The notes beneath the pieces were generated by a model. The model did no database searches. It was not told the DNA's origin and was given only the letters and a program-made list of their open reading frames with translations. This document shows positions 1 through 19,516 of a stretch of DNA of 64,000 bases, piece by piece. The translations under genes and the position numbers were made by a program. Position 1 is the stretch's first letter; each line of letters begins with the position of its first letter. The DNA comes from Flavobacterium aquaticum (lineage in GTDB: Bacteria; Bacteroidota; Bacteroidia; Flavobacteriales; Flavobacteriaceae): positions 124,001 through 188,000 of the forward strand of contig NZ_QLMI01000001.1 of assembly GCF_003259835.1 (NCBI RefSeq), given 5' to 3'.

Positions 1-1073
1 AAAGTGGTCAGTTTGAAATTGTTTCTTCTTTAGATGGAAAAAACTTAACAGAAAATTCAGCAAAAGAAGCTGTTTTTAAAGGAAAATTTCAGCTAGCTAT
101 CATTATACCAGAAAATCTAAGTAAAGATTTGCAATTAAAAGTAAATCAAAACGTAGATAAAATAATTTCAAATTTTGGAATTGGTGATCTTTCGGAAGAG
201 CCAAAAAAAGATTCACTTCCACAAATAATAAACAAAAAAGAAGTCCGACTTTATTTTGATCCTGCTACGCAAGCCACGTTTAAAAGTAATGTAAAAAGTA
301 GTATTGATAAAATGATTTCTCAAATTGAAACCAAATCCATTTACGCTACTTTTCAAGAGCAATTAGGAGAAGGAGAAGAACCTATTTTTGAGCAGGAAAG
401 TTTCATTACGTTTAAAGAAATTGTTCCAACGGTTGATAATAAAGAAATTTTACCAAATTCGGTGCAACATAACGTTCCGGCTTGGACTTTATTTGCCATC
501 TTTTTTATAATTGTTCCGCTTTCTATTAATATTGTTAAAGAAAAAGGACAAGGAACACAAATTCGATTACTAACCAATCCAGTTCCATATTCTATAGTGA
601 TTGCTGGAAAAACAATTACGTATTTGGTAATTTGTATGATTCAGTTTTATCTAATGGTTTTAGTTGGAATGTATTTATTTCCCTATTTAAGTTTACCAAC
701 ATTAGATTTAGATGGAAAATTTTTTCTAATGAGTGTTGTTGCATTATTCTCAGGATTAGCAGCAATTGGATTCGGAATTTTACTTGGAACTATTGCTAAA
801 ACTCAAGAACAATCAGCACCTTTTGGAGCAACTTCGGTAGTAATTTTAGCTGCTATTGGTGGCGTTTGGGTTCCCGTATTTGCTATGCCAAAAGTAATGC
901 AAGTTATTTCGCATATTTCACCTATGAATTGGGGATTAAACGCATTTTATGATGTTTTACTACGTAAAGCTGATGCTGTAGAAATTCTTCCCGAAATATT
1001 TTTACTACTTTTGTTCTTTATAATTACAATTTTTATTGCCATCCAATATGATAAAAAGAAAAGAGCAGTATAA
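1..1073 (+). CDS. ABC-2 type transporter permease, 5' end outside window
   Basis: The frame is open from base 3 to the TAA at 1071-1073, so the gene starts left of the window; the first in-frame TTG at 129 is probably not the true start. The visible part has a long extracytoplasmic stretch and then about six membrane segments, from the VPAWTLFAIFF region to the final IITIFIAIQY. This is the usual layout of ABC-2 permeases that carry a large periplasmic loop after the first helix. The ATPase partner is not visible and is presumably upstream. It is the first gene seen of the pigment operon and overlaps the next gene by 26 bases. Export or membrane placement of the pigment or a precursor is inferred from context only. 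Confidence 0.85.
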   Translation, partial: SGQFEIVSSLDGKNLTENSAKEAVFKGKFQLAIIIPENLSKDLQLKVNQNVDKIISNFGIGDLSEEPKKDSLPQIINKKEVRLYFDPATQATFKSNVKSSIDKMISQIETKSIYATFQEQLGEGEEPIFEQESFITFKEIVPTVDNKEILPNSVQHNVPAWTLFAIFFIIVPLSINIVKEKGQGTQIRLLTNPVPYSIVIAGKTITYLVICMIQFYLMVLVGMYLFPYLSLPTLDLDGKFFLMSVVALFSGLAAIGFGILLGTIAKTQEQSAPFGATSVVILAAIGGVWVPVFAMPKVMQVISHISPMNWGLNAFYDVLLRKADAVEILPEIFLLLLFFIITIFIAIQYDKKKRAV

Positions 1074-1497
1074 CGAGGCTTCTCATTTAAGCGTTTCTAA
1101 AGATATTAGAGTTCGATTTAACGAAACAGATCCATTAGGAATTGTTTGGCACGGTTATTACATCACTTATTTTGAAGATGGAAGAGAAGCTTTTGGAAGA
1201 TTGCACGGTATATCTTATCTAGATGTTCAAAAACACGGTTATACAACTCCAATTGTAAAATCGGTATGTGAACATAAGTTGTCATTAAAATATGGCGATG
1301 TGGCTCGTATTGAAACTACAATTGTAGATTCTCCAGCAGCTAAAATGATTTTTAGATATGTAATTTACGATAGCAATAATGAAATAGCTTGTACAGGTGA
1401 AACCGTTCAAGTGTTTTTAGATAGTGATGGAAATTTAGTTTTAAATGCACCTTCTTTTTATGAAGAATGGAAAAAAAGCGTTGGATTATTAAAATGA
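1048..1497 (+). CDS. acyl-CoA/acyl-ACP thioesterase, 4-hydroxybenzoyl-CoA thioesterase-like hot-dog fold
   Basis: About 149 residues, typical of YbgC/FadM-like hot-dog thioesterases. Near the N-terminus is IRVRFNETDPLGIVWHGYY, matching the family motif in which the Asp of the TDPLGIVWH segment is catalytic. I chose ATG 1048 because this puts that motif about 20 residues from the start; an upstream TTG at 1036 is possible. It overlaps the upstream permease and shares ATGA with the next ketosynthase, so translational coupling is likely. In aryl-polyene and flexirubin clusters such a thioesterase is thought to release or edit acyl chains on the carrier protein; that role is inferred. Confidence 0.85.
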   Translation: MIKRKEQYNEASHLSVSKDIRVRFNETDPLGIVWHGYYITYFEDGREAFGRLHGISYLDVQKHGYTTPIVKSVCEHKLSLKYGDVARIETTIVDSPAAKMIFRYVIYDSNNEIACTGETVQVFLDSDGNLVLNAPSFYEEWKKSVGLLK

Positions 1498-2630
1498 TAG
1501 CAAATAAAACAATTTATATTTCCGATGCGAACTGCGTAACTCCGTTAGGTTTTGATTTAGAAGCCAATTGGAAGGCGCTCGTAAAAGGGCAATCAGGTAT
1601 TCAATTTCAAGAAAAATACGGAAATCTTTCTTCTATCTATGCTTCTATAATTGAAGATGAAAAGTTAAATGAAAGTTTTCTAAAAGTTTCTAATGAAAAC
1701 ACGTTTACCAAATTAGAAAAGATGCTCATTTTAGCATTGCACCCAATTATAAATAAAAATAAAGTTACCGAAAAATCAGTTTTAATTCTTTCTACAACAA
1801 AAGGAAATATTTCGTTATTAGAAAATCAAGAATTACCAATTGAAGAAGCGCAGTTAGCAACATTAGCAAAAAAAATAAATACTTTTTTCGGATTTAAAAC
1901 AGAACCAATCGTGGTTTCAAACGCCTGTGTTTCTGGAGTTTTAGCGGTTTCAGTTGCTAAACGAATGATTCAGTTTGGCGCTTATGAAAACGCATTTGTA
2001 ATTGCTGGAGATGAAATTTCCGAATTTGTTTTGTCTGGTTTTAATTCGTTTCAAGCGATGAGTAGTTTGCCTTGTGCTCCTTATGATGAATCTCGAAATG
2101 GAGTAACTCTTGGCGAAGCAGCAGCAGCGGTTTATATTTCTTCGGAAAAACCAACTGAAAACGCTGTAGCAATCATTGGTGATGGAGCTATAAACGATGC
2201 CAATCATATTTCTGGACCATCAAGAACAGGTGAAGGCTTGTTTAAAAGTATTGAAAGTGCTTTCAAAGATGCAAATATTAGTAAAGATAAGTTAGATTAC
2301 ATTTCGGCTCACGGAACTGCCACTTTATACAATGACGAAATGGAAGCAACTGCTTTTTCTCGTTCCCATATTGATACTGTTGCCATAAATAGTTTAAAAG
2401 GCTATTACGGACACACATTAGGCGCTTCTGGATTGTTAGAAATTGTAATCGGATTGCAATCGGTTTATAACGAAGAATTATTAGCATCAAAAGGATTTAA
2501 AAACTCTGGAGTTTCTATTCCAATTGCTATTTTAAAAGAAAATAGAAAAAAAGAAATCAAATATTTCTTAAAAACAGCATCAGGCTTTGGCGGATGTAAT
2601 ACAGCAATACTGTTTGAAAAAATAAATTAA
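1494..2630 (+). CDS. beta-ketoacyl-ACP synthase, FabF-like
   Basis: About 378 residues, the usual KAS I/II length. All three catalytic residues are visible: Cys145 in NACVSG, His273 in SAHGTAT and His307 in [11 protein letters not shown]. It should therefore perform decarboxylative Claisen condensation of malonyl-ACP with a growing acyl or aryl chain. ATG 1494 overlaps the thioesterase stop (ATGA) and gives the normal N-terminus ([13 protein letters not shown]), so I prefer it to the upstream ATG at 1467. It is followed by a ketosynthase-like fragment, an ACP, a second ketosynthase and a chain-length-factor-like protein, the classic type II polyene set. Its division of labour with the second ketosynthase cannot be read from the sequence. 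Confidence 0.9.
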
Positions 2631-2632
2631 AA

Positions 2633-3247
2633 TTGACGACAAATTATCACATATCAAGCTATTGCAAAATAGAAAATAATACACTTCAACTAAACGGAGC
2701 AACTGTTTTAGAAATGAACGATGTATTATTTCCTGAATTTATTAAAAATGCATCAAAAACAATCGGCTTAGAATATCCAAAATTTTTTAAAATGGATAAT
2801 TTAAGTAAATTAGCCTTTTTAGGAGCAGAAGCAATCTTGAAAGACAACATCGATTTAGAAAATGAAAACGATATTGCGCTTGTATTTGCTAATAAATCTT
2901 CAAGTTTAGATACCGATGTAAAATATCAAGATTCAATTTCTGATTCCGAAAATTATTTTCCAAGTCCTGCCGTTTTTGTGTACACATTACCTAATATTTG
3001 CGTGGGTGAAATAAGTATCAAACATCAATTAAAAACAGAAAACGCATTTTTTGTGTTTGATGATTTTAAACCCGATTTTATGTCAAATTACGCATCGTAT
3101 TTGTTAGAAAGCGGTAAAACACAAAAAGTACTTTGCGGTTGGGTAGAATATTATAAAAACGAATACAAAGCTTTTGTTTACCTAGTAGAAAAATCAGGAA
3201 CAATTGCACACGATAAACAAAATATACAAACATTATACAATCAATAA
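2633..3247 (+). CDS. short ketosynthase-like protein of the pigment cluster, no complete active site
   Basis: A 204-residue product starting at TTG 2633, two bases after the preceding stop, and followed two bases later by the ACP gene. It resembles the N-terminal part of a ketosynthase: the segment with [11 protein letters not shown] and [15 protein letters not shown] has the spacing of the region around a KAS nucleophile. It lacks the C-terminal half with the HGTAT and GHT histidines, so independent condensation is unlikely. Proteins of this size are commonly called 3-oxoacyl-ACP synthase in flavobacterial pigment clusters. It may be a structural partner of one of the full ketosynthases. The assignment rests on weak similarity and context. 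Confidence 0.6.
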
Positions 3248-3249
3248 TT

Positions 3250-3507
3250 ATGGAAGCTTTAAAACAAGAATTAAAATCAAAAATCATTGAAGTTTTAAAT
3301 TTAGAAGATATTGCAATTGAAGATATTAACGATAACGATCCTTTATTTGGAGATGGTTTAGGTTTAGATTCAATTGATGCTTTAGAATTAATTGTGCTTT
3401 TAGATAAAGAATACGGAATTAGATTAGCTGATCCAAAACAAGGAAAAGCAATTTTCGAATCAATTGAAACTATGGCAGCTTATATTGCTGAAAACAGAAC
3501 TAAATAA
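3250..3507 (+). CDS. acyl carrier protein
   Basis: An 85-residue acidic protein with the carrier motif GLDSIDALELIVLLD; Ser41 of DSID is the expected 4'-phosphopantetheine site. The length is that of a free-standing type II ACP. The phosphopantetheinyl transferase at the right end of the cluster is the obvious activating enzyme. The gene lies between the ketosynthase-like fragment and the second ketosynthase with 2- and 10-base gaps, so it is co-transcribed and should carry the growing polyene chain. Only one ACP gene is visible, whereas aryl-polyene clusters often have two; another may lie to the left. Confidence 0.93.
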   Translation: MEALKQELKSKIIEVLNLEDIAIEDINDNDPLFGDGLGLDSIDALELIVLLDKEYGIRLADPKQGKAIFESIETMAAYIAENRTK

Positions 3508-3517
3508 TACAATCTAA

Positions 3518-4708
3518 ATGAAAGTTGCAATTACAGGCATGGGAATTATATCTTCAATAGGAAATACTGTTGAAGAGAACTTCCATTCATTAGTTTCCCT
3601 AAAAACGGGACTTTCTACAATTTCAAACATTGAAACGATTCATAAAGACATCATTAAAGTGGGAGAAATTAAACTGACTAATGAGCAATTAGCCAAGCAA
3701 CTTAATTTACCAAGTGATAATAATTATTCTCGTACCGCATTATTAGGTGCTATTGCAGCTAAACAAGCAGTTGAAAATGCAAAAATTAGCGATATGAATG
3801 CATATAAGTCAGGATTGATTTCAGCAACAAGCGTTGGTGGAATGGATATGACTGAAAAATATTATTACGAATATTTTGAAAACGAAGCTTGCCAAAAATA
3901 CATAACCAGTCACGATATTGGAGATAATTCTCAAAAAATCGCGAATTGTATCGGATTAAAAGGCATGGTTACTACAATTAGTACGGCTTGTTCTTCTGCA
4001 GCAAATGCAATTATGTTAGGCGCAAGATTAATTCAATCTGGCGAATTAGATAGAGTAGTGGTTGGAGGAACAGATGCTTTAGCAAAATTTACCATAAACG
4101 GATTTAAAACGTTGATGATTTTGTCTGATGACTACAACGCTCCGTTTGATAACAACAGAAAAGGATTAAATTTAGGTGAAGCCGCTGCGTTTTTAGTTTT
4201 AGAATCGGAGACGATTGTAAAAAAAGAAAATAGAGAAGTTTTGGCTTACGTTACCGGTTTTGGAAATGCAAATGATGCTTTTCATCAAACAGCTTCTTCG
4301 GAAAACGGCGATGGTGCTTTTTTAGCTATGAATAAAGCCTTCAAAATGGCTAAAATTCAACCAGGCGAAATTGATTACATAAACGCCCACGGAACGGCGA
4401 CACCAAACAACGATTTATCTGAAGGAAGAGCCATTATCAGAATATTTGGAGAAAATGTTCCTGATTTCAGTTCGACCAAGCCTTTTACAGGTCATACTTT
4501 AGCAGCAGCTGCGGGTATTGAAGCAGTTTATAGTATTTTGGCAATTCAGAATAATATTATTTTTCCTAATTTGAATTTTAAAACAAATATGGAAGAATTC
4601 AATTTAACGCCACAACTTACACTTAAAGAAAAAGAGATACATCATGTACTTTCAAATTCTTTCGGATTTGGAGGAAATTGTTCCACTTTAATATTTTCAA
4701 AGAACTAA
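3518..4708 (+). CDS. beta-ketoacyl-ACP synthase II, FabF-like
   Basis: A 396-residue ketosynthase with a complete triad: Cys158 in STACSSAAN, His291 in NAHGTAT and His326 in TGHTLAAAAG. The N-terminus MKVAITGMGIISSIG is canonical for KAS II, so the ATG at 3518 is secure. Its stop overlaps the start of the next gene by one base (TAATG). Since the neighbour is a ketosynthase homologue without catalytic residues, this protein is the likely catalytic half of a KS-CLF heterodimer that extends the polyene. That pairing is an inference from gene order. Confidence 0.92.
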   Translation: MKVAITGMGIISSIGNTVEENFHSLVSLKTGLSTISNIETIHKDIIKVGEIKLTNEQLAKQLNLPSDNNYSRTALLGAIAAKQAVENAKISDMNAYKSGLISATSVGGMDMTEKYYYEYFENEACQKYITSHDIGDNSQKIANCIGLKGMVTTISTACSSAANAIMLGARLIQSGELDRVVVGGTDALAKFTINGFKTLMILSDDYNAPFDNNRKGLNLGEAAAFLVLESETIVKKENREVLAYVTGFGNANDAFHQTASSENGDGAFLAMNKAFKMAKIQPGEIDYINAHGTATPNNDLSEGRAIIRIFGENVPDFSSTKPFTGHTLAAAAGIEAVYSILAIQNNIIFPNLNFKTNMEEFNLTPQLTLKEKEIHHVLSNSFGFGGNCSTLIFSKN

Positions 4709-5769
4709 TGCAAAAGTGCTACATTAACGGAATGGGATGCGTCTCTTCTCAAGAAACATATGATACTTCTTTCTTAGAATCGGTTGAAATTAATACAACC
4801 GAAAACATAGTTTATGCTAAACAACCTTCATACAAAGAATTAATTCCGCCAGCCGCAGCAAGACGAATGGCAAAAGGAGTTAAAATGGGCTTAGCCGCAT
4901 CAACAAAAGCGTTAAAAGAAGCAAATGTTGAGGTTCCAGACGCTATAATTACTGGAACGGGAATGGGTTGTATTGAAGATTCTGAAAAATTCTTAAAAGC
5001 TTTAATTGATAATAACGAAGAATACTTAACACCAACTAATTTTATTCAATCTACACACAATACTGTTGGTGCACAAATTGCCTTAGGATTAGGTTGTAAA
5101 GGTTATAATTTCACGTATGTTAATGGTTCAATTTCTTTTGAATCAGCTTTGCTTGATGCAAAATTACAACTTGAAAATGAAGAAGAAAACACGATTTTAG
5201 TTGGTGCTGCCGATGAAACATCATCGCATACAATGGAGTTGTTTAAACTGGTTAACATCATTAAAAAAGAAAGCGATCAACCTTATTCTGTTTTAGATTC
5301 AAATTCTTCAGGAGTAGTTTACAGTGAAGGTGCAACTTTTGTAACTTTAGAAAATGTAAAAAAAGAAAATTCTTATGCCGTTTTAGAAGCATTACAAATT
5401 CAAAACGAATTGAATATTGACGAGGTTGAAAGTTTCATTAGTAGCTTTTTAGAAAAGAATAATTTAAAAATTCAAGATATTGATGTTGTTGTTTTAGGAA
5501 ATAACGGAGATATTAGTTTTGATACTTATTACACAGCTGTTGATTCATTATTTGATCAAATTCCGCAAGTTTATTACAAACATCTAAGTGGGGAATTCAA
5601 TACCGCTTCTGCATTTGGATTTTGGGTTGCAGCATCGATTCTTAAAAATCAAGCAATTCCGCAAGTTGTAAAAATGAACTCTTTTGAAAAAGCTAATTTT
5701 TCAAAAGTATTACTTTATAATCAGTTTCAAGGAAAAGACCATAGCTTAGTACTTTTATCAAAATGTTAA
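4708..5769 (+). CDS. chain-length-factor-like ketosynthase homologue, catalytically degenerate
   Basis: About 353 residues from ATG 4708; the upstream TTG at 4678 would lie inside the previous gene. The fold is ketosynthase-like (INGMGCVSS, GTGMGCIEDSE), but the residue aligned with the nucleophilic Cys is Gly or Ser (TYVNGSISFESAL), the usual HGTAT histidine falls at NNGDISFD, and the GHT histidine is replaced in LSGEFNTASAFG. All three catalytic positions are therefore missing, as expected for a chain-length factor in type II systems. Its coupling to the catalytic ketosynthase just upstream supports a KS-CLF pair. The role in setting chain length is inferred. Confidence 0.8.
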   Translation: MQKCYINGMGCVSSQETYDTSFLESVEINTTENIVYAKQPSYKELIPPAAARRMAKGVKMGLAASTKALKEANVEVPDAIITGTGMGCIEDSEKFLKALIDNNEEYLTPTNFIQSTHNTVGAQIALGLGCKGYNFTYVNGSISFESALLDAKLQLENEEENTILVGAADETSSHTMELFKLVNIIKKESDQPYSVLDSNSSGVVYSEGATFVTLENVKKENSYAVLEALQIQNELNIDEVESFISSFLEKNNLKIQDIDVVVLGNNGDISFDTYYTAVDSLFDQIPQVYYKHLSGEFNTASAFGFWVAASILKNQAIPQVVKMNSFEKANFSKVLLYNQFQGKDHSLVLLSKC

Positions 5770-6527
5770 AACATAAATATTCTGTATTTATATTTTTTGT
5801 ACTGCTTGCTATTTTGTTTTTCACTAAAGCAAGTATACTTTTTTATGTTTTACTTTTTTTGTCTTTTTTAGCCATAACAACTTGGGGTGCTTTTGATATA
5901 AGATTGAACTATTTTACTAAAGCTATTTGCAAAAGTAATGCTACTAATAAAAAAAATATAGCCATTACATTTGACGATGGTCCGCATGAAAAAACTCCTG
6001 AAATTTTAGATGTTTTAATGGAATACAATGCAAAAGCCACTTTTTTTTGCATTGGGAAACAAATTGAAAAACATCCTGAAATTCTTAAACGCATTTTAAA
6101 CGAAGGTCATATTATAGGAAATCATTCCTACTCGCATTCTAAATGGAATGGTTTTTTTTCTACCCAAAAAATGGTTTCAGAAATTGAACAAACCAATATT
6201 TTAGTATCGAAACTCGTTAATAAAAAAGTTAGACTTTTTAGACCGCCTTTTGGAGTTACAAATCCTAATATAGCAAGAGCTGTTGTTAAAACAAATCAAA
6301 TAGTTGTAGGTTGGAATATTCGCTCATTAGATACTGTTATTGAAAGTGAAAATGCTATTTTAAATCGAATTAAAAACAGATTAAAACCAGGAGGAATTAT
6401 TCTATTACATGATACTTCTGCTAAAACTGTATCTGTTTTGGAACAGTTATTGCTATTTTTGCAATCAGAAGGTTATCAAACAGTAACAATTGAAGAATTA
6501 TTAGAAATCTCTGCTTATGAAAACTAA
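5763..6527 (+). CDS. polysaccharide deacetylase family protein, membrane-anchored NodB domain
   Basis: 254 residues. Two N-terminal hydrophobic segments (about 8-40) precede a NodB homology domain. The metal and catalytic motifs are intact: TFDDGPH with Asp71/Asp72, HSYSH with His121/His125, RPPFG at 160-164 and LLHDT with His216. An active metal-dependent carbohydrate esterase facing the periplasm is therefore likely. It overlaps the CLF-like gene by 7 bases and the LolA-like gene by 11, so it belongs to the same operon. Deacetylase-family genes recur in flexirubin-type clusters; the natural substrate is unknown to me. Confidence 0.85.
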   Translation: MLKHKYSVFIFFVLLAILFFTKASILFYVLLFLSFLAITTWGAFDIRLNYFTKAICKSNATNKKNIAITFDDGPHEKTPEILDVLMEYNAKATFFCIGKQIEKHPEILKRILNEGHIIGNHSYSHSKWNGFFSTQKMVSEIEQTNILVSKLVNKKVRLFRPPFGVTNPNIARAVVKTNQIVVGWNIRSLDTVIESENAILNRIKNRLKPGGIILLHDTSAKTVSVLEQLLLFLQSEGYQTVTIEELLEISAYEN

Positions 6528-7143
6528 ATTTTTAGTGCTGATTATTTTAATTTGTAGCTTTAAAATGAACGCACAAGAGCAAAAAATGTCGGCTCAGGAA
6601 ATAGTTAAATTTAAAGAAACGATAGAGAATCAGTCAAAAAATATTAAAACAATTAAAACTGATTTTGTTCAAATAAAACATATGGATTTTTTAACGAAAG
6701 ACATTGAAACTTCTGGAAAAATGTACTTCAAATCTCCGAATTTGTTAAATTGGCAATACACAAAGCCTTACCAATATAGTATTATTTTTAAGAATAATAA
6801 AGTCTATATAAATGATCAAGGCAATAAAAGTACGGTTGATGCAAAAAGTAAAATTTTTGAGAAAATCAATAAACTTATCGTAGGAAGCGTTAGCGGTAAT
6901 ATGTTTGACGATAAAGAATTTGATATTTCGTATTTCAAAACTAAGGAACATTACATCACTAAATTGATTCCAAAAACTGCCTCGATAAAAAAGATGATTA
7001 AACAAATTGATTTGTATTTTCCTTTAAAAGATGCTACGGTTTCTGAAGTTAAATTAATTGAATCATCTGGAGATTACACAAAAATTATATTCAAAAATAA
7101 AGTAATTAATACAAAAATTGATGATTCGGTATTTACTAATTAG
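6517..7143 (+). CDS. LolA-like outer-membrane lipoprotein carrier
   Basis: 208 residues with a signal peptide ending near KMNAQEQ. The rest is a LolA-type beta sheet: IKTIKTDFVQIKHMDFL followed by SGKMYFKSPNLLNWQYTKP, the stretch most typical of LolA relatives. In the Lol system LolA shuttles lipoproteins across the periplasm; cluster-linked LolA homologues in aryl-polyene loci are thought to move the hydrophobic pigment or its lipid conjugate. It overlaps its neighbours on both sides (11 and 23 bases). It is probably a dedicated paralogue; the chromosomal LolA is not visible. Confidence 0.82.
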   Translation: MKTKFLVLIILICSFKMNAQEQKMSAQEIVKFKETIENQSKNIKTIKTDFVQIKHMDFLTKDIETSGKMYFKSPNLLNWQYTKPYQYSIIFKNNKVYINDQGNKSTVDAKSKIFEKINKLIVGSVSGNMFDDKEFDISYFKTKEHYITKLIPKTASIKKMIKQIDLYFPLKDATVSEVKLIESSGDYTKIIFKNKVINTKIDDSVFTN

Positions 7144-7732
7144 TGCTTTCTTTAGCCTGTTTATTTCATGTAAATCGTATCAAATAAAAGATGCTGTTTC
7201 TGTAGATAATTCTTTGCAATTTGTTCAAAATCAATATTTTTCGGATGTTTCATTAGATTATGTCTATAAAACACACATCGAGATTTATGGAAACAAAATG
7301 GGCGGAATTTTCATTGCAAAACGAATTAACGATACCATCCACAGAATGGTTTTAACAACTGATTTTGGAAATAAACTATTAGATTTTGAAGTTTCTGAAA
7401 ACAGTTTTAAAGTAAATTTTGTAATTGATAATCTAGATAAAAAAATAATCCTCAATACACTAAGAGACGACTTTAGAACGTTGTTACAAGTGAATAGTAA
7501 AGTCTTCAAAACTTATAAAAGAAATAAAGAAGTAATTTATCAAACAGAAAACAATGCATATTACTATTTTGATGAGGTTTCAAGCAACTTAACCAAGATA
7601 ATTAAAACGAATAAAAGAAAGGAAAAGGTTATTTTTACATTTAACCCAAAAAAAACTACTTTTGCAGAAAATATCAATATTCAACATAATAACATTAAAC
7701 TTAAAATAGATTTTAATCAAATAAACAATTAA
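7121..7732 (+). CDS. pigment-cluster lipoprotein, unknown function
   Basis: 204 residues or slightly fewer depending on start. ATG 7121 gives a lipoprotein signal with lipobox FISC (Cys17); an adjacent TTG at 7118 is equally in frame. The mature part is beta-rich and basic with no domain I recognise. It overlaps the LolA-like gene by 23 bases and is followed one base later by a beta-barrel gene, so it sits in the export part of the operon. A role as an outer-membrane acceptor working with the LolA-like carrier is plausible by analogy with LolA/LolB, but the sequence alone does not establish LolB homology. Confidence 0.7.
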   Translation: MIRYLLISAFFSLFISCKSYQIKDAVSVDNSLQFVQNQYFSDVSLDYVYKTHIEIYGNKMGGIFIAKRINDTIHRMVLTTDFGNKLLDFEVSENSFKVNFVIDNLDKKIILNTLRDDFRTLLQVNSKVFKTYKRNKEVIYQTENNAYYYFDEVSSNLTKIIKTNKRKEKVIFTFNPKKTTFAENINIQHNNIKLKIDFNQINN

Positions 7733-7733
7733 C

Positions 7734-8330
7734 ATGAAAAAAGCATTTTATTTATTAGCCATTTTATTTGGATGTGTAACTTTTAGTAACGCACAAGTTT
7801 CTTTTAAGCCAGGATTTAGAGCAGGTTTAAATGTTTCTCACTTCTCAAAAGGAGATGATGCTTATTACAATGATGGATTTACTAGCAATAGAGATTTTGG
7901 TTCAAGAACAGATTTTTATGTTGGTTTTTTTGGTGATTTGAAACTTACAAAATATTATTCATTACAACCAGAAATTAACTATTCAAGACAAGGTTCAAAA
8001 TACGATTACTATGATGAAGCTTTAATGAGAAACCAATCTACAGATTTAGAAGTATCTTATTTAGCAGTTGGAATTGCTAATAAATTTACCTTTAATAAAC
8101 TTAACGTTCACGTTGGACCAACATTTGAATTTTTAGTTGATCAAAATTTTGACACGGATGCTGATATAGATTTAGCATTCTTCTTAGGTTTAGGATATGA
8201 TATTACACCAAATTTTGGAGTTGAAGCAAGAATTAAAAAAGGAATTGTACCTGTATTAGATTATTCTGATGGAAATCATACAAATGTTGTGTTTTCTGTT
8301 GGAGGATTTTATAAATTTGACGTAAAATAA
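7734..8330 (+). CDS. outer-membrane beta-barrel protein, PorT-like
   Basis: 198 residues with a clear signal peptide ending near SNAQVSFKPG. The mature part alternates aromatic and polar residues and has the pattern FRAGLNVSHF, DFYVGFFGDLKL and SLQPEINYSRQGSKY, typical of the outer-membrane beta-barrel (OMP_b-brl/PorT) family of Bacteroidota, and ends in an aromatic-rich strand. It follows the lipoprotein gene by one base. Barrel homologues of this size usually have eight strands and no wide pore. In this cluster it may anchor or organise the pigment in the outer membrane, which is inference from location. Confidence 0.8.
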   Translation: MKKAFYLLAILFGCVTFSNAQVSFKPGFRAGLNVSHFSKGDDAYYNDGFTSNRDFGSRTDFYVGFFGDLKLTKYYSLQPEINYSRQGSKYDYYDEALMRNQSTDLEVSYLAVGIANKFTFNKLNVHVGPTFEFLVDQNFDTDADIDLAFFLGLGYDITPNFGVEARIKKGIVPVLDYSDGNHTNVVFSVGGFYKFDVK

Positions 8331-8343
8331 TAATACAAAACTT

Positions 8344-8721
8344 ATGTTGTTACAGGATTTTTATAGCGTAGATACATTAAATTCAGTTAGCGAAGGGAAA
8401 TATATTGCTTCAATAACATTAAATAAAGATCACGCCATTTTTAAAGGACATTTTCCAGGAAATCCTGTAACACCAGGAGTTTGTATGATGCAAATAATTA
8501 AAGAAATAACAGAAAGTATTTTGAAAGTTTCTTTAACTATGGTGAGCACATCAAACGTAAAGTTTATGGCATTAATTAATCCAGAAGTTAATGCTAAACT
8601 AACTTTAGATTTAGAAATTTCTGAAAATGAAGCTTCAGAAATAAAAGTAAAAAACACTACAAGTTTTGACGAAACTGTAGCTTTAAAACTTTCAAATACC
8701 TATAAAAAAATAGCTTCTTGA
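8344..8721 (+). CDS. 3-hydroxyacyl-ACP dehydratase-like hot-dog protein
   Basis: 125 residues with the FabZ/FabA-type motif FKGHFPGNPVTPGV, including catalytic His36. In FabZ a Glu follows six positions after the PGV Pro (PGVLILE); here the aligned residue is Gln50 (PGVCMMQ), so the acid partner may be missing or supplied elsewhere. Dehydration of each beta-hydroxyacyl intermediate is required to form a conjugated polyene, which fits the cluster. The stop overlaps the next start by four bases. A non-catalytic or specialised hot-dog subunit is the alternative reading. Confidence 0.8.
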   Translation: MLLQDFYSVDTLNSVSEGKYIASITLNKDHAIFKGHFPGNPVTPGVCMMQIIKEITESILKVSLTMVSTSNVKFMALINPEVNAKLTLDLEISENEASEIKVKNTTSFDETVALKLSNTYKKIAS

Positions 8722-9209
8722 AACTAATTTCATCAATAGTATTTTTAATAACTTTCTTTTCATTTCAAAGTTATAATGTAACAGACATTAGAAAAATGTA
8801 TGTTGAATCTTCGGTTTCTAAAACCAATGCGATGAAGTTCCATGATTTTATGAGTAATTATTCAAAAAATGATGAAACTTTATTAGCTTATAAAGGAGCT
8901 TCAATAGCTTTAAAAGCAAAACATACAACTGGAATTAAACAAAAGAAAGAAGAGTTTATCAAAGGAATTACTATTTTAGAATCGGTAATTAAATCGAATC
9001 CCAATAATATTGAAGCGCGTTTGATTCGGTTAAGTATTCAAGAAAATACACCAAAAATACTTAAGTACAAAGGAAATATTGAAGCTGATAAAAAACAAAT
9101 TGTACTTTTGTTTAACAAGCAATCAGTTGATTTAAAAGAATATATACGAGATTTTGTAAATCAGTCAAAAGTTTTTACGGAAGCTGAAAAACAACAATTA
9201 AAAAAATAG
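8718..9209 (+). CDS. secreted hypothetical protein of the pigment cluster
   Basis: 163 residues, probably starting at TTG 8718, which overlaps the dehydratase stop. The N-terminus is hydrophobic like a signal peptide (LISSIVFLITFFSF). The remainder is helical and lysine-rich and contains a TPR-like stretch around ILESVIKSNPNNIEARLIRLS. I do not recognise a family. Tight packing before the glycosyltransferase shows it belongs to the operon, and its predicted export suggests work alongside the LolA-like, lipoprotein and barrel proteins. Confidence 0.65.
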   Translation: MKLISSIVFLITFFSFQSYNVTDIRKMYVESSVSKTNAMKFHDFMSNYSKNDETLLAYKGASIALKAKHTTGIKQKKEEFIKGITILESVIKSNPNNIEARLIRLSIQENTPKILKYKGNIEADKKQIVLLFNKQSVDLKEYIRDFVNQSKVFTEAEKQQLKK

Positions 9210-9210
9210 A

Positions 9211-10389
9211 ATGCTTTCAAATTCTACTATTTCAGAAACAATGAATCTAAAAAAGGTTTGTGTTATTATTCCAACTTATAATAACCACAAAACTTTAAAA
9301 AGAGTTATAGATGGTGTATTACAATATACAACAAATGTCATTGTTGTGAATGATGGTTCTACTGATAGCACTTCTGAAATTATAAATTCATATGCTACTA
9401 TAGATTCTATTTCAATTCCCAAAAATCAAGGAAAAGGAAACGCACTCCGATTAGGATTTAAAAAAGCAATTGAAAACGGATTTCATTATGCCATTACAAT
9501 AGATTCAGACGGACAACATTTTCCTGATGATATTCCTGTTTTTTTAGAGGAATTAGAAAAAAGCGATAGTAATATTTTACTAATTGGTAGCCGAAATATG
9601 AATCAAGAAGGCGTACCAAAGAAAAGTAGTTTTGGGAATAAATTTTCTAACTTTTGGTTTTGGTTTGAAACCGGAATTCAATTAGAAGACACTCAATCAG
9701 GTTATCGATTGTATCCGTTATTACACATTCCAAAGAAATATTTTACCAAAAAATTTGAGTTTGAAATCGAAGTTATTGTTCGTTCTGCATGGAAAGGTGC
9801 TGTCGTGAAAAATATTCCTGTAAAAATTTTATACGATCCAACCGAACGCGTAACGCATTTTAGACCTTTTAAAGATTTTACAAGAATTAGTATTCTAAAC
9901 ACCGTTTTAGTGCTAATAACCCTTTTATATATTAAACCAAGAGATTTTTTTAGAAGTTTCCAAAAAAAAAAAATAAAGCAATTCATACAAGATGAAATTT
10001 TAGAAAGTAACGATTCTAATTTAGTAAAATCATTGTCAATTGCATTAGGAGTTTTCATTGGAATTGCACCCTTTTGGGGATTTCAAACTGTCTTAGTTAT
10101 CTTTTTTGCAGTTTTATTTCGATGGAATAAAATATTAGCGTTTACCTTTTCTAATATTAGTATTCCACCCATGATTCCTTTTATTATTTTCGCATCTTTA
10201 CAAATAGGTTCTTATTTTGTTGGAGGTGATGTGTTTTTTAACGAAAATCAAGAATTTTCTTTTGAAATGATTAAAAATCACACAACTCAATACCTTGTTG
10301 GAAGTTTTATTTTAGCTACAATTACAGCATTTGTTTTCGGATTTTCTAGTTATTTCTTACTTTCGCTGACGGGAAAATCAAAAAAATAA
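9211..10389 (+). CDS. family 2 glycosyltransferase fused to a DUF2062 membrane domain
   Basis: 392 residues if started at ATG 9211, or 382 from ATG 9241, which begins directly at the GT2 fold (VCVIIPTYNN). The N-terminal domain has VVNDGSTD and the nucleotide-sugar motif DSDGQHFPDD, the dolichyl-phosphate-mannose-synthase-like type. The C-terminal ~130 residues are a DUF2062 domain (SIALGVFIGIAPFWGFQT) with about three to four membrane helices. The two-domain architecture is common in flexirubin and aryl-polyene clusters. It may glycosylate a lipid or the pigment head group at the inner membrane; the acceptor is not known. Confidence 0.88.
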   Translation: MLSNSTISETMNLKKVCVIIPTYNNHKTLKRVIDGVLQYTTNVIVVNDGSTDSTSEIINSYATIDSISIPKNQGKGNALRLGFKKAIENGFHYAITIDSDGQHFPDDIPVFLEELEKSDSNILLIGSRNMNQEGVPKKSSFGNKFSNFWFWFETGIQLEDTQSGYRLYPLLHIPKKYFTKKFEFEIEVIVRSAWKGAVVKNIPVKILYDPTERVTHFRPFKDFTRISILNTVLVLITLLYIKPRDFFRSFQKKKIKQFIQDEILESNDSNLVKSLSIALGVFIGIAPFWGFQTVLVIFFAVLFRWNKILAFTFSNISIPPMIPFIIFASLQIGSYFVGGDVFFNENQEFSFEMIKNHTTQYLVGSFILATITAFVFGFSSYFLLSLTGKSKK

Positions 10390-10396
10390 AATTAAA

Positions 10397-14062: not shown

Positions 14063-14067
14063 GATAA

Positions 14068-15585
14068 GTGAAAGATAAATACGACATAGTAATTGTAGGA
14101 AGTGGTTTAGGCGGATTAGTTTCATCTATTATCTTAGCAAAAGAAGGATACAAAGTTTGTGTCTTAGAAAAGAACAATCAGTTTGGTGGAAATTTGCAAA
14201 CTTTTGTGCGCGATAAAACCATTTTTGATACCGGAATTCATTACATCGGAGGTTTATCCGAAGGTCAAAATTTGTACAAATACTTCAAGTACTTAGGTAT
14301 AATGGATGAACTACGATTGCACAAAATGGATGAAGATGCATTTGATGTTATTTCTTTTGAAGATTCAAATGAAGAATATCCGCATGCGCAAGGTTATGAA
14401 AATTTTGTAAATCAATTGCTTAAAAGTTTTCCTGATGAAAAAGAAGCTTTAGAAAAATATTGCAAATTAGTAGTAGACGTTTGTGATACTTTTCCACTTT
14501 ATAATTTAAATGCTGATGGTAAATATCAAAGCGAAATATTAACGTTAAATGCCAAAGATTCCATTGCTGAAATTACTCAAAACGAAAAATTACAAGCAGT
14601 TTTAGCCGGAACCAACTTTTTATATGCAGGAATTCCTGATAAATCGCCTTTTTACGTTCATGCGTTATCTGTAAATTCATACATACAAAGTTCGTGGCGT
14701 TGTGTTAATGGTGGTAGTCAAATTACCAAACAATTAATCAAGCAACTTAAAAAGTATGGTGGCGAAATCTACAAATACAAAGATGTTGCTAAGTTTGAAG
14801 TTGAAGATAATAAAGTAGTATCAGTAGTAACAAAAGCAAATGAAGTAATAAAAGCAGATTTATTTATCTCTAATATAGATCCAAAAGCTACTTTGAAAAT
14901 GGTTGGGTTGTCTCATTTTAGAAAATCATACTATGAGCGAATTGATAAGTTAGAAAGCGTAATTTCGGCCTTTAGTTTATATATTGTTTTTAAACCTAAT
15001 ACATTCAAATATTTGAATTATAATTACTATCATTTTAAAAATTCGAATGATGTTTGGACAGCATACGAATATGATGAAAATTCTTGGCCAAAAGCGTATA
15101 TGGCTTCTATGAATTACTCAGGAAAAAATGTTGAATGGGCAGAAGGAATGACTTTTATTACTTACATGAAATATGAAGATGTAAAAGAATGGGAAGAAAC
15201 CTTTAACACAACTGCAGAAAAAAGCGATAGAGGAATAAGCTACGAAGAATTTAAAACACAAAAAACTGAAAAATTTCTAAACGAAATTGAAATAAAGTTT
15301 CCAAATATTAGAAGTTGCATTCAATCCATTCATACTTCAACTCCGTTATCTTACAGAGATTACATTGGTGGAAATAGCGGAAATATGTACGGATACGTTA
15401 AAGATTGTAATAATCCGATGTTAACGTTTATTGCACCTAAAACCAAATTAGACAATTTATATCTAACAGGGCAAAGTATTAATATGCATGGTGTTTTGGG
15501 TGTTACTATTGGAGCTGTTTTAACGTGTTCGGAAATTGTTGGGAAAGAATATTTGGTAGATAAAATAAATCAAGAAACGAAGTAA
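14068..15585 (+). CDS. CrtI/phytoene-desaturase-like FAD-dependent oxidoreductase
   Basis: 505 residues starting at GTG 14068. The N-terminus is a Rossmann FAD-binding motif (VIVGSGLGGLVSS, then VLEKNNQFGGN), and the C-terminus has the second FAD contact seen in CrtI and FAD-retinol saturase relatives (LYLTGQSINMHGVLGV). Such enzymes oxidise, saturate or isomerise conjugated chains. In a flexirubin-type cluster it may act on the polyene or on the alkylresorcinol side. It lies five bases after the exporter fusion gene and five before the C45 gene, within the operon. Substrate and direction of reaction cannot be told from the sequence. Confidence 0.87.
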   Translation: MKDKYDIVIVGSGLGGLVSSIILAKEGYKVCVLEKNNQFGGNLQTFVRDKTIFDTGIHYIGGLSEGQNLYKYFKYLGIMDELRLHKMDEDAFDVISFEDSNEEYPHAQGYENFVNQLLKSFPDEKEALEKYCKLVVDVCDTFPLYNLNADGKYQSEILTLNAKDSIAEITQNEKLQAVLAGTNFLYAGIPDKSPFYVHALSVNSYIQSSWRCVNGGSQITKQLIKQLKKYGGEIYKYKDVAKFEVEDNKVVSVVTKANEVIKADLFISNIDPKATLKMVGLSHFRKSYYERIDKLESVISAFSLYIVFKPNTFKYLNYNYYHFKNSNDVWTAYEYDENSWPKAYMASMNYSGKNVEWAEGMTFITYMKYEDVKEWEETFNTTAEKSDRGISYEEFKTQKTEKFLNEIEIKFPNIRSCIQSIHTSTPLSYRDYIGGNSGNMYGYVKDCNNPMLTFIAPKTKLDNLYLTGQSINMHGVLGVTIGAVLTCSEIVGKEYLVDKINQETK

Positions 15586-15590
15586 GCATT

Positions 15591-17264
15591 ATGAAGAGTA
15601 GAATTGCTTTTCTTTTTTATTCAGCGGTTGTTTTTTTATTGATGGTTTCTTGCGGAATTTCAAAATCTTTAAAACATCAACCAATTACTGCTGGATATGA
15701 CCAAACAATTCCGGTTGTAGATAAAAAAGCAGCTACATTATTTGTGTCTGGAAACAATTCGTTACTTAAAAATAAACACCAACTTTGGGAACTATATGTA
15801 GAAGGCGATCCATTGCAAGTTGGATTAATTTCAGGAGCATTAACTGATTCTTTATTAAAAAAGCAAGAAACTATTTTCTTCTCAAAAATCAAAGATTTAG
15901 TTCCATCAGAATCTAAACAAAAGTTTCTGCGTTTCTTTTTAAAATGGTACAATCGAAAGTTATATCTAAATATTCCTGAAGAATACAAAACAGAAATTTA
16001 CGGTTATTCAAGATATTCTTCAAAAGATTTTGATGCCATTGCGCCCGCATATTTGCGCAGTTTGTATTTGCACGGCGCACACGATATTGGTCACGCTTTG
16101 CAAGATTTAGCATTAGTAGGCTGTTCTTCTTTTGCCGCTTGGGATTCAAAATCCGAAGACGGAAATTTAATTTTAGGAAGAAATTTCGATTTCTATGCCG
16201 GAGATGATTTTGCCAAAGACAAAGTAATTGCTTTTATAAAACCCACTCAAGGAAATCCGTTTATGATATACACTTGGGCAGGAATGACAGGAGCAGTTTC
16301 GGGAATGAATACAAAAGGATTAACGATTACGATAAATGCAGGAAAATCAAAAATTCCTTTAATTGCCAAAACACCTATTTCGGTTTTAGCACGCGAAATT
16401 TTACAATACGCAACTAATATTGAAGAGGCCATTGCCATTGCTAAAAAGCGAAAAGTTTTTGTTTCTGAATCAATAATGGTCGGAAGCGCGGCTGATAACA
16501 AAGCAATTCTTATTGAAGTTTCGCCTAATAATTTTGGAGTTTTTGATGTTCCAAATAGCAATCAAATTATTTGTTCTAATCATTTTCAAAGTGAAGAATT
16601 AAAAAACGATAAACGAAATAAAGACCAAATTAGAGACAGTCATTCAAAATATCGATTTGATAAAATGACGGAATTATTTGATAATAATCCGAAAATTAAT
16701 CCAACAATTGCTGCAGAAATTTTAAGAAATACCAAAGGCTTAAACGATAAAGAAATTGGATACGGAAATGAAAAAGCGCTCAATCAGTTATTAGCGCATC
16801 ATGGAATTATCTTTAAACCAAAGGAATTATTGGTTTGGGTATCGGCTAATCCATATCAATTAGGCGAATTTGTTTGTTACGATTTAAATCAAATTTTCAA
16901 TGAAACTAGAGATGAAAATAGCTTTGAATCGTTTGAACGCGCTGATTTATCAATAGCAAAAGACCCATTTTTAGAAACAGAAGCATACAAAAAATACGAA
17001 CAATTTAGAATTGAAGATGCCAAAATGGATTCAGCTTTAAATGAAAAGAAATTCATTGATGCAAATCAAATTAAGGAATATCAGTCTTTAAATCCGTATT
17101 TTTGGGTAGTTTATTACAAAGCAGGTTTATACTTTTACAACAATAAAGATTTCGGTCAAGCTAAAACTCAATTTGAAAAGGCTTTACAATGCGAAATTAC
17201 GACCTTAACAAGTAAAGTTCAGGTTGAAAAATATTTAAAAAAATCAATAAAGAAACTGAAATGA
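15591..17264 (+). CDS. C45-type Ntn-hydrolase lipoprotein, acyl-CoA:6-aminopenicillanate acyltransferase-like
   Basis: 557 residues with a lipoprotein signal and lipobox MVSC (Cys21). The central domain has GCSSFAAWD followed by LILGRNFDFY, the hallmark of C45/choloylglycine-type Ntn hydrolases; Cys178 would become the N-terminal nucleophile after self-cleavage. A TPR-like region with YYKAGLYFYNNKDFGQAKTQFEKAL closes the protein. The C45 class makes or breaks amide and ester bonds, so this could be the acyltransferase that joins pigment parts on the periplasmic side, or a hydrolase. Its stop overlaps the next gene (ATGA). Confidence 0.85.
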   Translation: MKSRIAFLFYSAVVFLLMVSCGISKSLKHQPITAGYDQTIPVVDKKAATLFVSGNNSLLKNKHQLWELYVEGDPLQVGLISGALTDSLLKKQETIFFSKIKDLVPSESKQKFLRFFLKWYNRKLYLNIPEEYKTEIYGYSRYSSKDFDAIAPAYLRSLYLHGAHDIGHALQDLALVGCSSFAAWDSKSEDGNLILGRNFDFYAGDDFAKDKVIAFIKPTQGNPFMIYTWAGMTGAVSGMNTKGLTITINAGKSKIPLIAKTPISVLAREILQYATNIEEAIAIAKKRKVFVSESIMVGSAADNKAILIEVSPNNFGVFDVPNSNQIICSNHFQSEELKNDKRNKDQIRDSHSKYRFDKMTELFDNNPKINPTIAAEILRNTKGLNDKEIGYGNEKALNQLLAHHGIIFKPKELLVWVSANPYQLGEFVCYDLNQIFNETRDENSFESFERADLSIAKDPFLETEAYKKYEQFRIEDAKMDSALNEKKFIDANQIKEYQSLNPYFWVVYYKAGLYFYNNKDFGQAKTQFEKALQCEITTLTSKVQVEKYLKKSIKKLK

Positions 17265-18550
17265 TACCACATATTGAAAAACAAACAACAGCTGAAATTA
17301 AAGCATTTCAAGAATTGAAATTGCAGGAAGTTTTGCAATATGTAAGTGCAAATTCGGTTTATTATCAAAATTTATTTCAAGAGCATAACATTGATATTTC
17401 TAAAATAAATACGTTAGAAGATTTACAACAAATTCCAACAACAACTAAGGAAGATTTACAACGAAATAATGATGATTTTTTGTGTGTTCCAACACATAAA
17501 ATTATTGATTTTGCAACAACTTCTGGGACTTTAGGTGATCCTGTAACTTTTGGATTAACCGATAACGATTTAGATAGATTAGCTTACAATGAAGCCATTT
17601 CGTTTGATTGTGCTGGAATAAAAGAAGGCGACATTGTGCAACTCATGACCACAATGGACAGAAGGTTTATGGCTGGTTTAGCTTACTTTCTTGGTCTTAG
17701 AAAAATGAAAGTTGGCGTAATTAGAGTAGGAGCAGGCATACCAGAATTACAATGGGATTCTATTTTGAAATACAAGCCAACGTATTTAATTACAGTTCCA
17801 TCATTTCTTTTAAAACTTATTGAATACGCAGATTCTCATGGAATCGATTATAATGATTTAGGAATTAAAGGTGCAATTTGTATTGGAGAATCGTTGCGTA
17901 ATCAAGATTTTTCAAATTCTATTCTAGCAGATAAAATTACCAGTAAATGGAATATTAAATTATTCTCAACTTACGCATCTACCGAAATGAGCACCGCTTT
18001 TACTGAATGCGAACATGGAGTAGGAGGTCATCATCATCCAGAATTGATTATTGTTGAAGTTTTAGATGACGAAAACAAGCCTGTTAAAGAAGGAGAAAGT
18101 GGCGAACTCACAATTACTACCATTGGCGTTGAAGCAATGCCTTTAATTCGCTTTAAAACAGGTGATATCGTTAAGTTGCATACAAACTCTTGTGCGTGTG
18201 GTAGAAATACACTTCGTGTAGGACCAGTTGTAGGAAGAAAACAGCAAATGATAAAATACAAAGGCACTACTTTGTATCCGCCAGCAATGAATGATGTATT
18301 GAATGATTTTGGAGCTATTGATAATTACTTAATCCAAATTTATACCAATGATTTAGGTACGGATGAAATTGTAATTAAAATAGCAGTTAATTCGCCTACA
18401 GAAGAATTTTTAACTGAAGTTAAAGATCATTTTAGAGCTAAACTACGTGTTACGCCAAAAATTGAATTTGTTTCCAAAGAAATTTTAAATCCAATTGTCT
18501 TTAATCCGATGAACAGAAAACCAACACGTTTTGTAGATTTAAGGAAATAA
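17261..18550 (+). CDS. adenylate-forming ligase, phenylacetate-CoA ligase-like
   Basis: 429 residues. It has the P-loop-like TSGTLGDPVTFG near residues 86-97, the YASTEMS adenine-binding segment and the RFKTGDIVKLH motif, matching PaaK-like AMP-dependent ligases, which are shorter than acyl-CoA synthetases. In aryl polyene and flexirubin pathways an adenylation enzyme activates the aryl acid (4-hydroxycinnamate type) for loading on the ACP or CoA; that is the most likely job here. It shares ATGA with the C45 gene and is the last plus-strand gene of the operon, converging on the phosphopantetheinyl transferase seven bases away. Confidence 0.87.
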   Translation: MIPHIEKQTTAEIKAFQELKLQEVLQYVSANSVYYQNLFQEHNIDISKINTLEDLQQIPTTTKEDLQRNNDDFLCVPTHKIIDFATTSGTLGDPVTFGLTDNDLDRLAYNEAISFDCAGIKEGDIVQLMTTMDRRFMAGLAYFLGLRKMKVGVIRVGAGIPELQWDSILKYKPTYLITVPSFLLKLIEYADSHGIDYNDLGIKGAICIGESLRNQDFSNSILADKITSKWNIKLFSTYASTEMSTAFTECEHGVGGHHHPELIIVEVLDDENKPVKEGESGELTITTIGVEAMPLIRFKTGDIVKLHTNSCACGRNTLRVGPVVGRKQQMIKYKGTTLYPPAMNDVLNDFGAIDNYLIQIYTNDLGTDEIVIKIAVNSPTEEFLTEVKDHFRAKLRVTPKIEFVSKEILNPIVFNPMNRKPTRFVDLRK

Positions 18551-18557
18551 CTTTTTT

Positions 18558-19187
18558 TTATTCAATTACATAAGCTAAAACATAGTTTTCTATGGTTTCA
18601 AGATGGATTGTATAACTAGTTTTTTTGTTATTAATCTCAACATTTGCAATGCATGAATTTGCATTTACTTGAAAAGGTTGTATTGAAATGTTTTCTTTAA
18701 AACTAACATCGTTTTCTGGAATTAACTTAAATAAAGCTTCTTTTATTGCCCATGCAAAAGTGGTTAGTGTAATTGCACTTTCCTTATTTTCTTTAGTATT
18801 CAGAATAAAATCTTCATTAAAGAGAAGAGAAATGTTTTTTAGGATTTTTTCGCTCTTCATTTCAATGTCAATCCCAACATTATTATCACTAATAATTATA
18901 CAAGCAAACTCATGAGAGTGTGAAATCGATATGTTTTTACCGTTCTTTAGAAGTGGTTTTCCAAAAGAATCATAATATAAATCAGAATCTGTATAGTTGA
19001 TTTCATTTAATAGCCTTCTAACAGCTAAAAAGCCTTTTATATGGTTTTCAGATTTCATTTTAACCAATCGATTGGTAGAAATTTCATTAAGAAGAAGATG
19101 TTGTTTTAAATCGGAAATTTCTTCATTTATTTTCCATAAATAAACAGAAGTATTGTTTGGAAGTAAAATTTCTTTAAAAAATGGCAT
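18558..19187 (-). CDS. 4'-phosphopantetheinyl transferase, Sfp type
   Basis: 209 residues. The two family motifs are present: VGIDIEMKS (Mg2+-binding) and FAWAIKEALFKL (the WxxKEAxxK motif). It transfers phosphopantetheine from CoA to the Ser of carrier proteins. Lying tail to tail with the pigment operon, seven bases from the ligase stop, it is the natural activator of the cluster ACP (Ser41 at 3250-3507). Enzymes of this kind often accompany secondary-metabolite clusters while AcpS serves fatty-acid synthesis. ATG 19187 gives a normal N-terminus. Confidence 0.9.
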   Translation of the reverse strand: MPFFKEILLPNNTSVYLWKINEEISDLKQHLLLNEISTNRLVKMKSENHIKGFLAVRRLLNEINYTDSDLYYDSFGKPLLKNGKNISISHSHEFACIIISDNNVGIDIEMKSEKILKNISLLFNEDFILNTKENKESAITLTTFAWAIKEALFKLIPENDVSFKENISIQPFQVNANSCIANVEINNKKTSYTIHLETIENYVLAYVIE

Positions 19188-19213
19188 TAAACGTATTATT
19201 TAAAGATTAAAAG

Positions 19214-19296
19214 TGACCAAGGAGGGATTTGAACCCTCACGCCCTTACGAGCACCACCCCCTCAAGATGGCGAGTCTACCGTTTCTCCACTTGGCC
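19214..19296 (-). tRNA. tRNA-Leu (anticodon GAG)
   Basis: Read on the minus strand, the 83-base molecule starts GGCCAAGTGG and ends CTTGGTC plus discriminator A. It has a class II long variable arm (GTGGTGCTCGTAAGGGCGT), a T arm with GGTTCAAATCC, and an anticodon stem CCATC/GGTGG around TTGAGGG, giving anticodon GAG. It is the last gene of a tRNA-Lys, tRNA-Lys, tRNA-Leu unit; a strong hairpin separates it from the second tRNA-Lys. CCA is not encoded. Confidence 0.92.
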
Positions 19297-19305
19297 TTAA
19301 ACAAC

Positions 19306-19330
19306 AAAGACGTTGCACTGCAACGTCTTT
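19306..19330 (-). terminator. 11-bp perfect hairpin between tRNA-Lys and tRNA-Leu
   Basis: AAAGACGTTGC, a three-base loop, then GCAACGTCTTT. On the minus strand the stem is followed by GTTGTTT, a weak U tract; on the plus strand it is followed by a longer T-rich run. It may terminate part of tRNA-operon transcription before tRNA-Leu, or be a processing signal. Direction is uncertain. Confidence 0.5.
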
Positions 19331-19341
19331 TAAATTTTTTG

Positions 19342-19414
19342 TGACCTGGCTGGGATTCGAACCCAGGACCCCATCATTAAAAGTGATGTGCTCTACCAGC
19401 TGAGCTACCAAGTC
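19342..19414 (-). tRNA. tRNA-Lys (anticodon TTT), copy 2
   Basis: 73 bases on the minus strand. Acceptor GACTTGG pairs with CCAGGTC with discriminator A; D arm GCTCAGCTGGTAGAGC; anticodon loop CTTTTAA (anticodon TTT) on stem CATCA/TGATG; T arm GGGTTCGAATCCC. It appears identical in sequence to the copy at 19444-19516 and is second in the tandem unit. Confidence 0.95.
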
Positions 19415-19443
19415 AATGCGTTCAAGAAATAAGTTTTATGTAG

Positions 19444-19516
19444 TGACCTGGCTGGGATTCGAACCCAGGACCCCATCATTAAAAGTGATGTGCTCTACCA
19501 GCTGAGCTACCAAGTC
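19444..19516 (-). tRNA. tRNA-Lys (anticodon TTT), copy 1
   Basis: The same 73-base tRNA-Lys as the copy at 19342-19414. The two lie 29 bases apart, suggesting recent duplication or gene conversion. This copy is first in the transcript: a good Bacteroidota promoter lies just upstream, with its -7 box 25 bases before the tRNA. Confidence 0.95.

Follow-up and report, generated by a model that had tools for sequence, protein, structure and literature searches.

Flexirubin loci are among the commonest biosynthetic clusters of their group, with 1,234 predicted in 2,680 genomes (PMC10734526). In Chitinophaga pinensis, FlxA has been shown to convert tyrosine to 4-coumarate and FlxY to convert this to 4-coumaroyl-coenzyme A (CoA); expression of darB with darA yields a dialkylresorcinol, and a darB mutant of Flavobacterium johnsoniae makes no flexirubin (PMC3992019). 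The proteins LolA2 and LolB2 have so far turned up in flexirubin-type loci only, and the cargo proposed for them is the pigment, precursors of it or lipoproteins encoded in the locus (PMC11885536). Here we examine a 64,000-nucleotide stretch of Flavobacterium aquaticum (the window; bases 124001-188000 of contig 1 in a genome of 2.82 Mb), the left end of which is almost certainly, on homology and gene order, the right part of one Flavobacterium flexirubin locus. The locus spans 31.4 kb from FlxA to FlxY, the window holding its right-hand part, and the strain is very probably a producer of flexirubin, a yellow-orange membrane pigment.

Eight curated NCBIfam models for flexirubin or dialkylresorcinol synthesis (FlxA, FlxB, DarB, DarG, LolB2, FlxY, LolA2 and DarH) scored above their cut-offs in a set of 36 locus proteins, of which 30 were run against NCBIfam and which were searched against Pfam at E 0.01/0.001. 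An earlier note, made from the window alone, had described 18 packed plus-strand genes with a facing Sfp-type transferase, had named among them a thioesterase, ketosynthases, an acyl carrier protein (ACP), a dehydratase, a LolA-like carrier, an MMPL fusion, a GT2-DUF2062 protein, a CrtI-like enzyme, a C45 hydrolase and a ligase, and had proposed a flexirubin-like product from a cluster cut at the left edge. The open reading frame (ORF) listing of the window agrees, with 18 plus-strand ORFs spanning 3-18550, in which neighbors overlap or are separated by no more than 13 bases (the listed start codons being a mechanical choice), and Pfam recovered every named class. The edge splits an ATP-binding cassette (ABC) permease, and the operon continues leftward into the flank L006, the 20 kb at contig 1 positions 104001-124000 (G000:C1). 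There the earlier note had expected a ketoreductase, an ammonia lyase, DarA and DarB, and had named a flank lacking ketoreductase, lyase and darAB as the observation that would speak against it; the flank, now read, contains FlxB, FlxA and DarB, all above cut-off, together with a DarA candidate recognized from position, distant homology and fold but not by any hidden Markov model (HMM). The proposed product is thus supported by the eight models and by the flx and dar genes of the flank. The pathway-specific matches outside the window are as follows (NCBIfam bits/cut-off).

L006:7131-8648, FlxA tyrosine ammonia-lyase, NF053541 900.3/700
L006, FlxB ketoreductase, NF053542 416.8/340
L006:15579-16712, DarB, NF053539 684.4/550
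L006, DarG, NCBIfam 213/170
L006, DarH, NCBIfam 509.2/300

In the flank the operon encodes the aromatic amino acid lyase, a WG-repeat protein, the short-chain reductase, a ketosynthase, an ACP, an LpxL-type acyltransferase, a CrtI-like enzyme and a 300-amino acid (aa) protein. It further includes genes for the KASIII-type protein, for two small proteins that match FabZ weakly, for a protein of 134 aa, for a BtrH-like protein and for an ABC ATPase. The genes in the window are listed below; the permease, deacetylase, LolB2 and beta-barrel protein had gone unnamed in the earlier reading.

3..1073, plus, ABC-2 permease cut by the window edge (whole gene G000:C1:123778-125073 = L007:9778-11073), PF12698 99.8 bits
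1036..1497, plus, 4HBT thioesterase, PF13279, NETD motif
1467..2630, plus, ketosynthase KS2, PF00109/PF02801, Cys and His motifs
2633..3247, plus, 204-aa protein, no Pfam or NCBIfam match, kept in 74/74 full-length relatives
3250..3507, plus, acyl carrier protein ACP2, PF00550, NF006617 88.5/70, DSID motif
3518..4708, plus, ketosynthase KS3, PF00109/PF02801, Cys and His motifs
4678..5769, plus, ketosynthase-like, chain-length-factor-like protein (KS4), weak PF00109 alone, active-site Cys absent
5763..6527, plus, polysaccharide deacetylase, PF01522
6517..7143, plus, LolA2, flexirubin-type carrier, NF053544 270.7/125
7118..7732, plus, LolB2, flexirubin-type, NF053540 247.1/60
7734..8330, plus, outer-membrane beta-barrel protein, PF13568, in 18/18 relatives
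8344..8721, plus, FabA/FabZ-like dehydratase, PF07977, motif check
8718..9209, plus, 163-aa protein, no Pfam or NCBIfam family above cut-off, in 18/18 relatives
9211..10389, plus, GT2 glycosyltransferase-DUF2062 fusion, PF00535 and PF09835
10397..14062, plus, MMPL exporter fused to a C-terminal acyltransferase, PF03176 and PF01553, HTSFLD and FPEG motifs
14068..15585, plus, CrtI/CrtISO-like flavin adenine dinucleotide (FAD) enzyme, PF13450 and PF01593, NCBIfam scan
15591..17264, plus, C45-type (C45/AAT) autoproteolytic acyltransferase/hydrolase, NF040521 219.3/85
17261..18550, plus, FlxY 4-coumarate-CoA ligase, NF053551 741.3/520
18558..19187, minus, Sfp-type phosphopantetheinyl transferase facing the run, PF01648 29.7 bits, cut-off 25

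Beyond the facing transferase lie three tRNA genes (19213-19516), and an Rfam scan of the window returned nothing besides these three.

By homology to characterized enzymes, FlxA would deaminate tyrosine to 4-coumarate, which FlxY would convert to the CoA ester; the ketosynthases, ACPs, FlxB and dehydratases would extend this coumarate starter into an aryl polyene, and DarA and DarB would use fatty-acid intermediates to build a dialkylresorcinol. One of the acyltransferases encoded in the locus may then esterify the polyene with the resorcinol (the candidates are DarH, the LpxL-type protein, the C45-type enzyme and the MMPL-linked domain), and transport of the pigment to the outer membrane could fall to LolA2/LolB2, the exporters of the MMPL and ABC types and the beta-barrel protein. 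Of the polyene set, ketosynthase, ACP and dehydratase are recognized by Pfam, with two further FabZ-like proteins matching weakly. Three ketosynthases, one in the flank and two in the window, retain the Cys and His motifs; the fourth, at 4678-5769, which resembles a chain-length factor, lacks both the Cys and the C-terminal ketosynthase domain of Pfam, and its only matches among PDB sequences were weak ones of the FabF type. The genome encodes another lyase, on contig 5, which scored 351.9 bits, far under the FlxA cut-off.

The DarA candidate is the 300-aa flavodoxin-like protein directly upstream of DarB, a position it holds in 80/80 of the related loci described below. A distant homologue, 27-29% identical, occurs on three Streptomyces plasmids; in the two plasmid regions opened it adjoins an ACP gene and a KASIII-type gene, and the one KASIII protein compared is 37% identical to DarB of this locus. 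A structure model built from 12 aligned sequences (mean predicted local distance difference test score, pLDDT, 89.8) has its best fold matches in WrbA and flavodoxins, with query-normalised template modelling (TM) scores of ~0.3-0.4, which are low because nothing in those proteins corresponds to its C-terminal helices. G protein-coupled receptor entries among the fold matches are presumably flavodoxin-fusion crystals, and a profile search with the candidate retrieved a putative Trp-repressor-binding protein (E 0.00093). The Azoarcus darA also adjoins darB and is listed as a dialkylresorcinol (DAR) aromatase (PMC3949708). Since Pfam and NCBIfam are silent, the identification draws on position, distant homology and the modelled fold, from which the 300-aa protein is very probably DarA, and DarA probably uses flavin in ring aromatisation. 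On the two opened Streptomyces plasmids (L126, NZ_CP108315.1; L127, NZ_CP109562.1), ACP, DarB-like and DarA-like genes are consecutive and stand beside genes for an FAD oxygenase, SCP2, FabF, P450 and FabG, an arrangement that may be a dialkylresorcinol-type cluster with a DarA annotated as hypothetical.

Relatives were taken as the best 80 of 193 confirmed loci from a DarB scan of named genomes, mostly titled Flavobacterium; as the best of 193, they lean to near kin. The nearest, Flavobacterium sp. LMO8, matched at 95% in that scan and has a FlxY 99% identical to the one here. Among the 74 full-length loci (six of the 80, shorter than 21,000 bases, were left out), FlxA, FlxB, KS1, ACP1, the LpxL-type gene and every gene from DarA through ACP2 were present in 74/74 in identical order; genes near the locus ends are undercounted in this set (KS3 72, KS4 65, deacetylase 31, LolA2 11). 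In the right half, compared in 18 genomes chosen from the 80, all 13 genes between 3518 and 18550 follow one another in identical order in 18/18, with edge undercounts for KS2 (12/18), the 204-aa gene (16/18) and ACP2 (17/18). Within the stretch fetched, an Sfp-type transferase follows FlxY in 3/18. Because this order is kept in both halves, the locus is an ordinary flexirubin cluster, a new copy of a known and common type that alone adds little. Flexirubin is a standard chemotaxonomic pigment.

Some parts of the neighborhood vary. The WG-repeat protein between flxA and flxB (L006:8717-9823, plus) is present in 69/74 full-length relatives, and the second CrtI-like FAD enzyme, encoded ahead of the DarA candidate (L006:12997-14652, plus), in 36/74. 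Among the extra ORFs of relatives (examined in 14 of the 80 loci on the left and in all 18 on the right), those of L033 and L048 look like lipoproteins. Genes for phytoene synthase, a CrtI-type desaturase and a MerR/B12-binding regulator occupy L006:74-3354 (minus), a few kb to the left of the flexirubin cluster, placing carotenoid and flexirubin genes close together. Three loci titled Chitinophagaceae, Chryseobacterium gleum and Bifidobacterium breve (L009, L012 and L035) are collinear with this one, and their DarB proteins share 94, 86 and 74% identity, respectively, with the one here; the bins seem to be mislabelled or contaminated.

Two other accounts of the locus deserve weighing. The ketosynthases, ACP, dehydratase, LolA, MMPL and GT2 proteins of the window belong to a set shared with plain aryl-polyene loci of the E. 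coli/Vibrio type (PMC3949708), whose product has no dialkylresorcinol. However, DarB, DarG, DarH and the DarA candidate stand in the same operon, and FlxA and FlxY provide a coumarate start, so that we consider such a product highly improbable and reject it on the dar genes. An arcuflavin- or xanthomonadin-type start was likewise set aside: Pfam showed no family of XanB2-type chorismatases in the 36 proteins of the locus, the part of the genome searched for it, and FlxA and FlxY are present. Conserved order in relatives speaks against chance packing of the genes.

Alternatively, the flexirubin locus could be silent or damaged and the strain pigment-free. Flexirubin production is inferred here from genes alone, which leaves room for this, but 0 internal stops were found in the 36 frames examined, the catalytic motifs of the ketosynthases, ACPs, FlxA, FlxB and acyltransferases are intact, and gene order is conserved; a decayed locus was dismissed on the stop-free frames, and we regard silence or damage as even less probable than a plain aryl-polyene product. 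Besides this reliance on genes, two points weigh against the flexirubin reading: neither Pfam nor NCBIfam matched the DarA candidate at E 0.001, leaving it without HMM support, and F. johnsoniae UW101 has ~17 steps from LolA2 to DarB versus 14 here, a comparison judged from locus tags only, by which small genes differ, with probably a few more in UW101. UW101 was not among the best 80 of 193 loci, and order was compared with other Flavobacterium. A flexirubin locus nonetheless remains by far the best account of the genes.

One gene beside the pathway merits separate attention. Divergent from flxA and left of the window, it encodes a halogenase-like FAD enzyme.

L006:5776-7014 = G000:C1:109776-111014, minus, halogenase-like FAD enzyme

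Its closest solved relative is 3nix (488 bits), named just flavoprotein/dehydrogenase; the next is the halogenase 3e1t (132 bits), with which its WxWxIP and lysine motifs align. A WxWxIP motif and a conserved lysine are marks of flavin-dependent halogenases, and both are at the expected place in 91/91 aligned orthologues of at least 380 aa (90 distinct, our own protein appearing twice; 15 shorter ones were left out, and some genomes may be represented by two loci). Across 149 Flavobacteriaceae genomes of 148 genera, with FlxA taken at its family cut-off and the enzyme at E 1e-60, FlxA occurred in 34 and the enzyme in the same 34 and in 0/115 others, the two genes being neighbors within 500 bases in 32/34. 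In a sample of 395 Bacteroidota genomes (FlxA at 1e-150, the enzyme at E 1e-40; in both this and the Flavobacteriaceae survey the two scans were taken as the same genome draw, since numbers and handles agree), 33 had FlxA and 30 of these the enzyme, which never occurred without FlxA. The gene is also present in 73/74 full-length loci. In three distant genomes it sits between homologues of the 1467-2630 and 2633-3247 genes, and in a fourth it adjoins the 2633-3247 homologue (the four being L154-L157). We are fairly confident that this flavoprotein belongs to the flexirubin pathway.

What it does there is harder to say. Chlorinated flexirubins are known, and ring chlorination is part of flexirubin chemistry (PMC3992019). 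We tentatively suggest that the enzyme is a fixed pathway part in this order and the chlorinase of the flexirubin aryl ring, acting beside the hydroxyl, though we would not bet on it; its substrate might then be a carrier- or CoA-bound coumaroyl or polyene chain, a suggestion that shares the modest odds of the chlorinase itself. Several observations run counter to a simple reading of the link with FlxA: three FlxA genomes (G263, G398 and G550) have no such enzyme at E 1e-40, one of the 74 named loci (L024) lacks the gene at the flxA-adjacent place, and the G078 copy has an in-frame stop. Moreover, kinship among the genomes means that they do not count as independent samples, and the same co-occurrence would be expected of other genes of the pathway. 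The C. pinensis pigment, C43H54O4, carries no chlorine, which would weigh against a chlorinase if that species has the gene. A tight FlxA link within one family could equally mean an obligate redox step rather than optional chlorination. A literature search, outside which lie Tables S4/S5 of PMC3992019 as a possible listing, found no paper assigning the gene to flexirubin ring chlorination. The link of FlxA with the halogenase-like gene yields a simple, testable candidate for this known reaction and, if the chlorinase reading is true, presence of the gene would predict which bacteria make chloro-flexirubins.

Among described systems, the cluster of F. johnsoniae UW101 (37 kb; darB Fjoh_1102; lolB2/lolA2 Fjoh_1084/1085) has dar and flx genes in one locus, as here (PMC3992019), and its LolA2 and LolB2 genes are adjacent in the operon, also as here (PMC11885536). 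C. pinensis shares FlxA, FlxB, FlxY, DarB, LolA, the deacetylase, the glycosyltransferase, the exporter and, to judge by the candidate here, very probably DarA, but its flx (Cpin_1853-1877) and dar (Cpin_6850-6851) genes lie apart, whereas here they are together. Its pigment is ring-methylated (PMC3992019), whereas the Pfam search assigned none of the 36 proteins here to a methyltransferase family, so our guess is a ring without a methyl group. The arcuflavin clusters of Azoarcus sp. BH72 likewise follow a polyene plus dialkylresorcinol logic, with darA, darB, a BtrH-like protein, LolA and an exporter, and include a gene annotated as a halogenase (PMC3949708). Arcuflavin synthesis, however, starts from chorismate via a XanB2-type enzyme and is spread over several loci, whereas the F. 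aquaticum pathway has a tyrosine lyase and a single locus.

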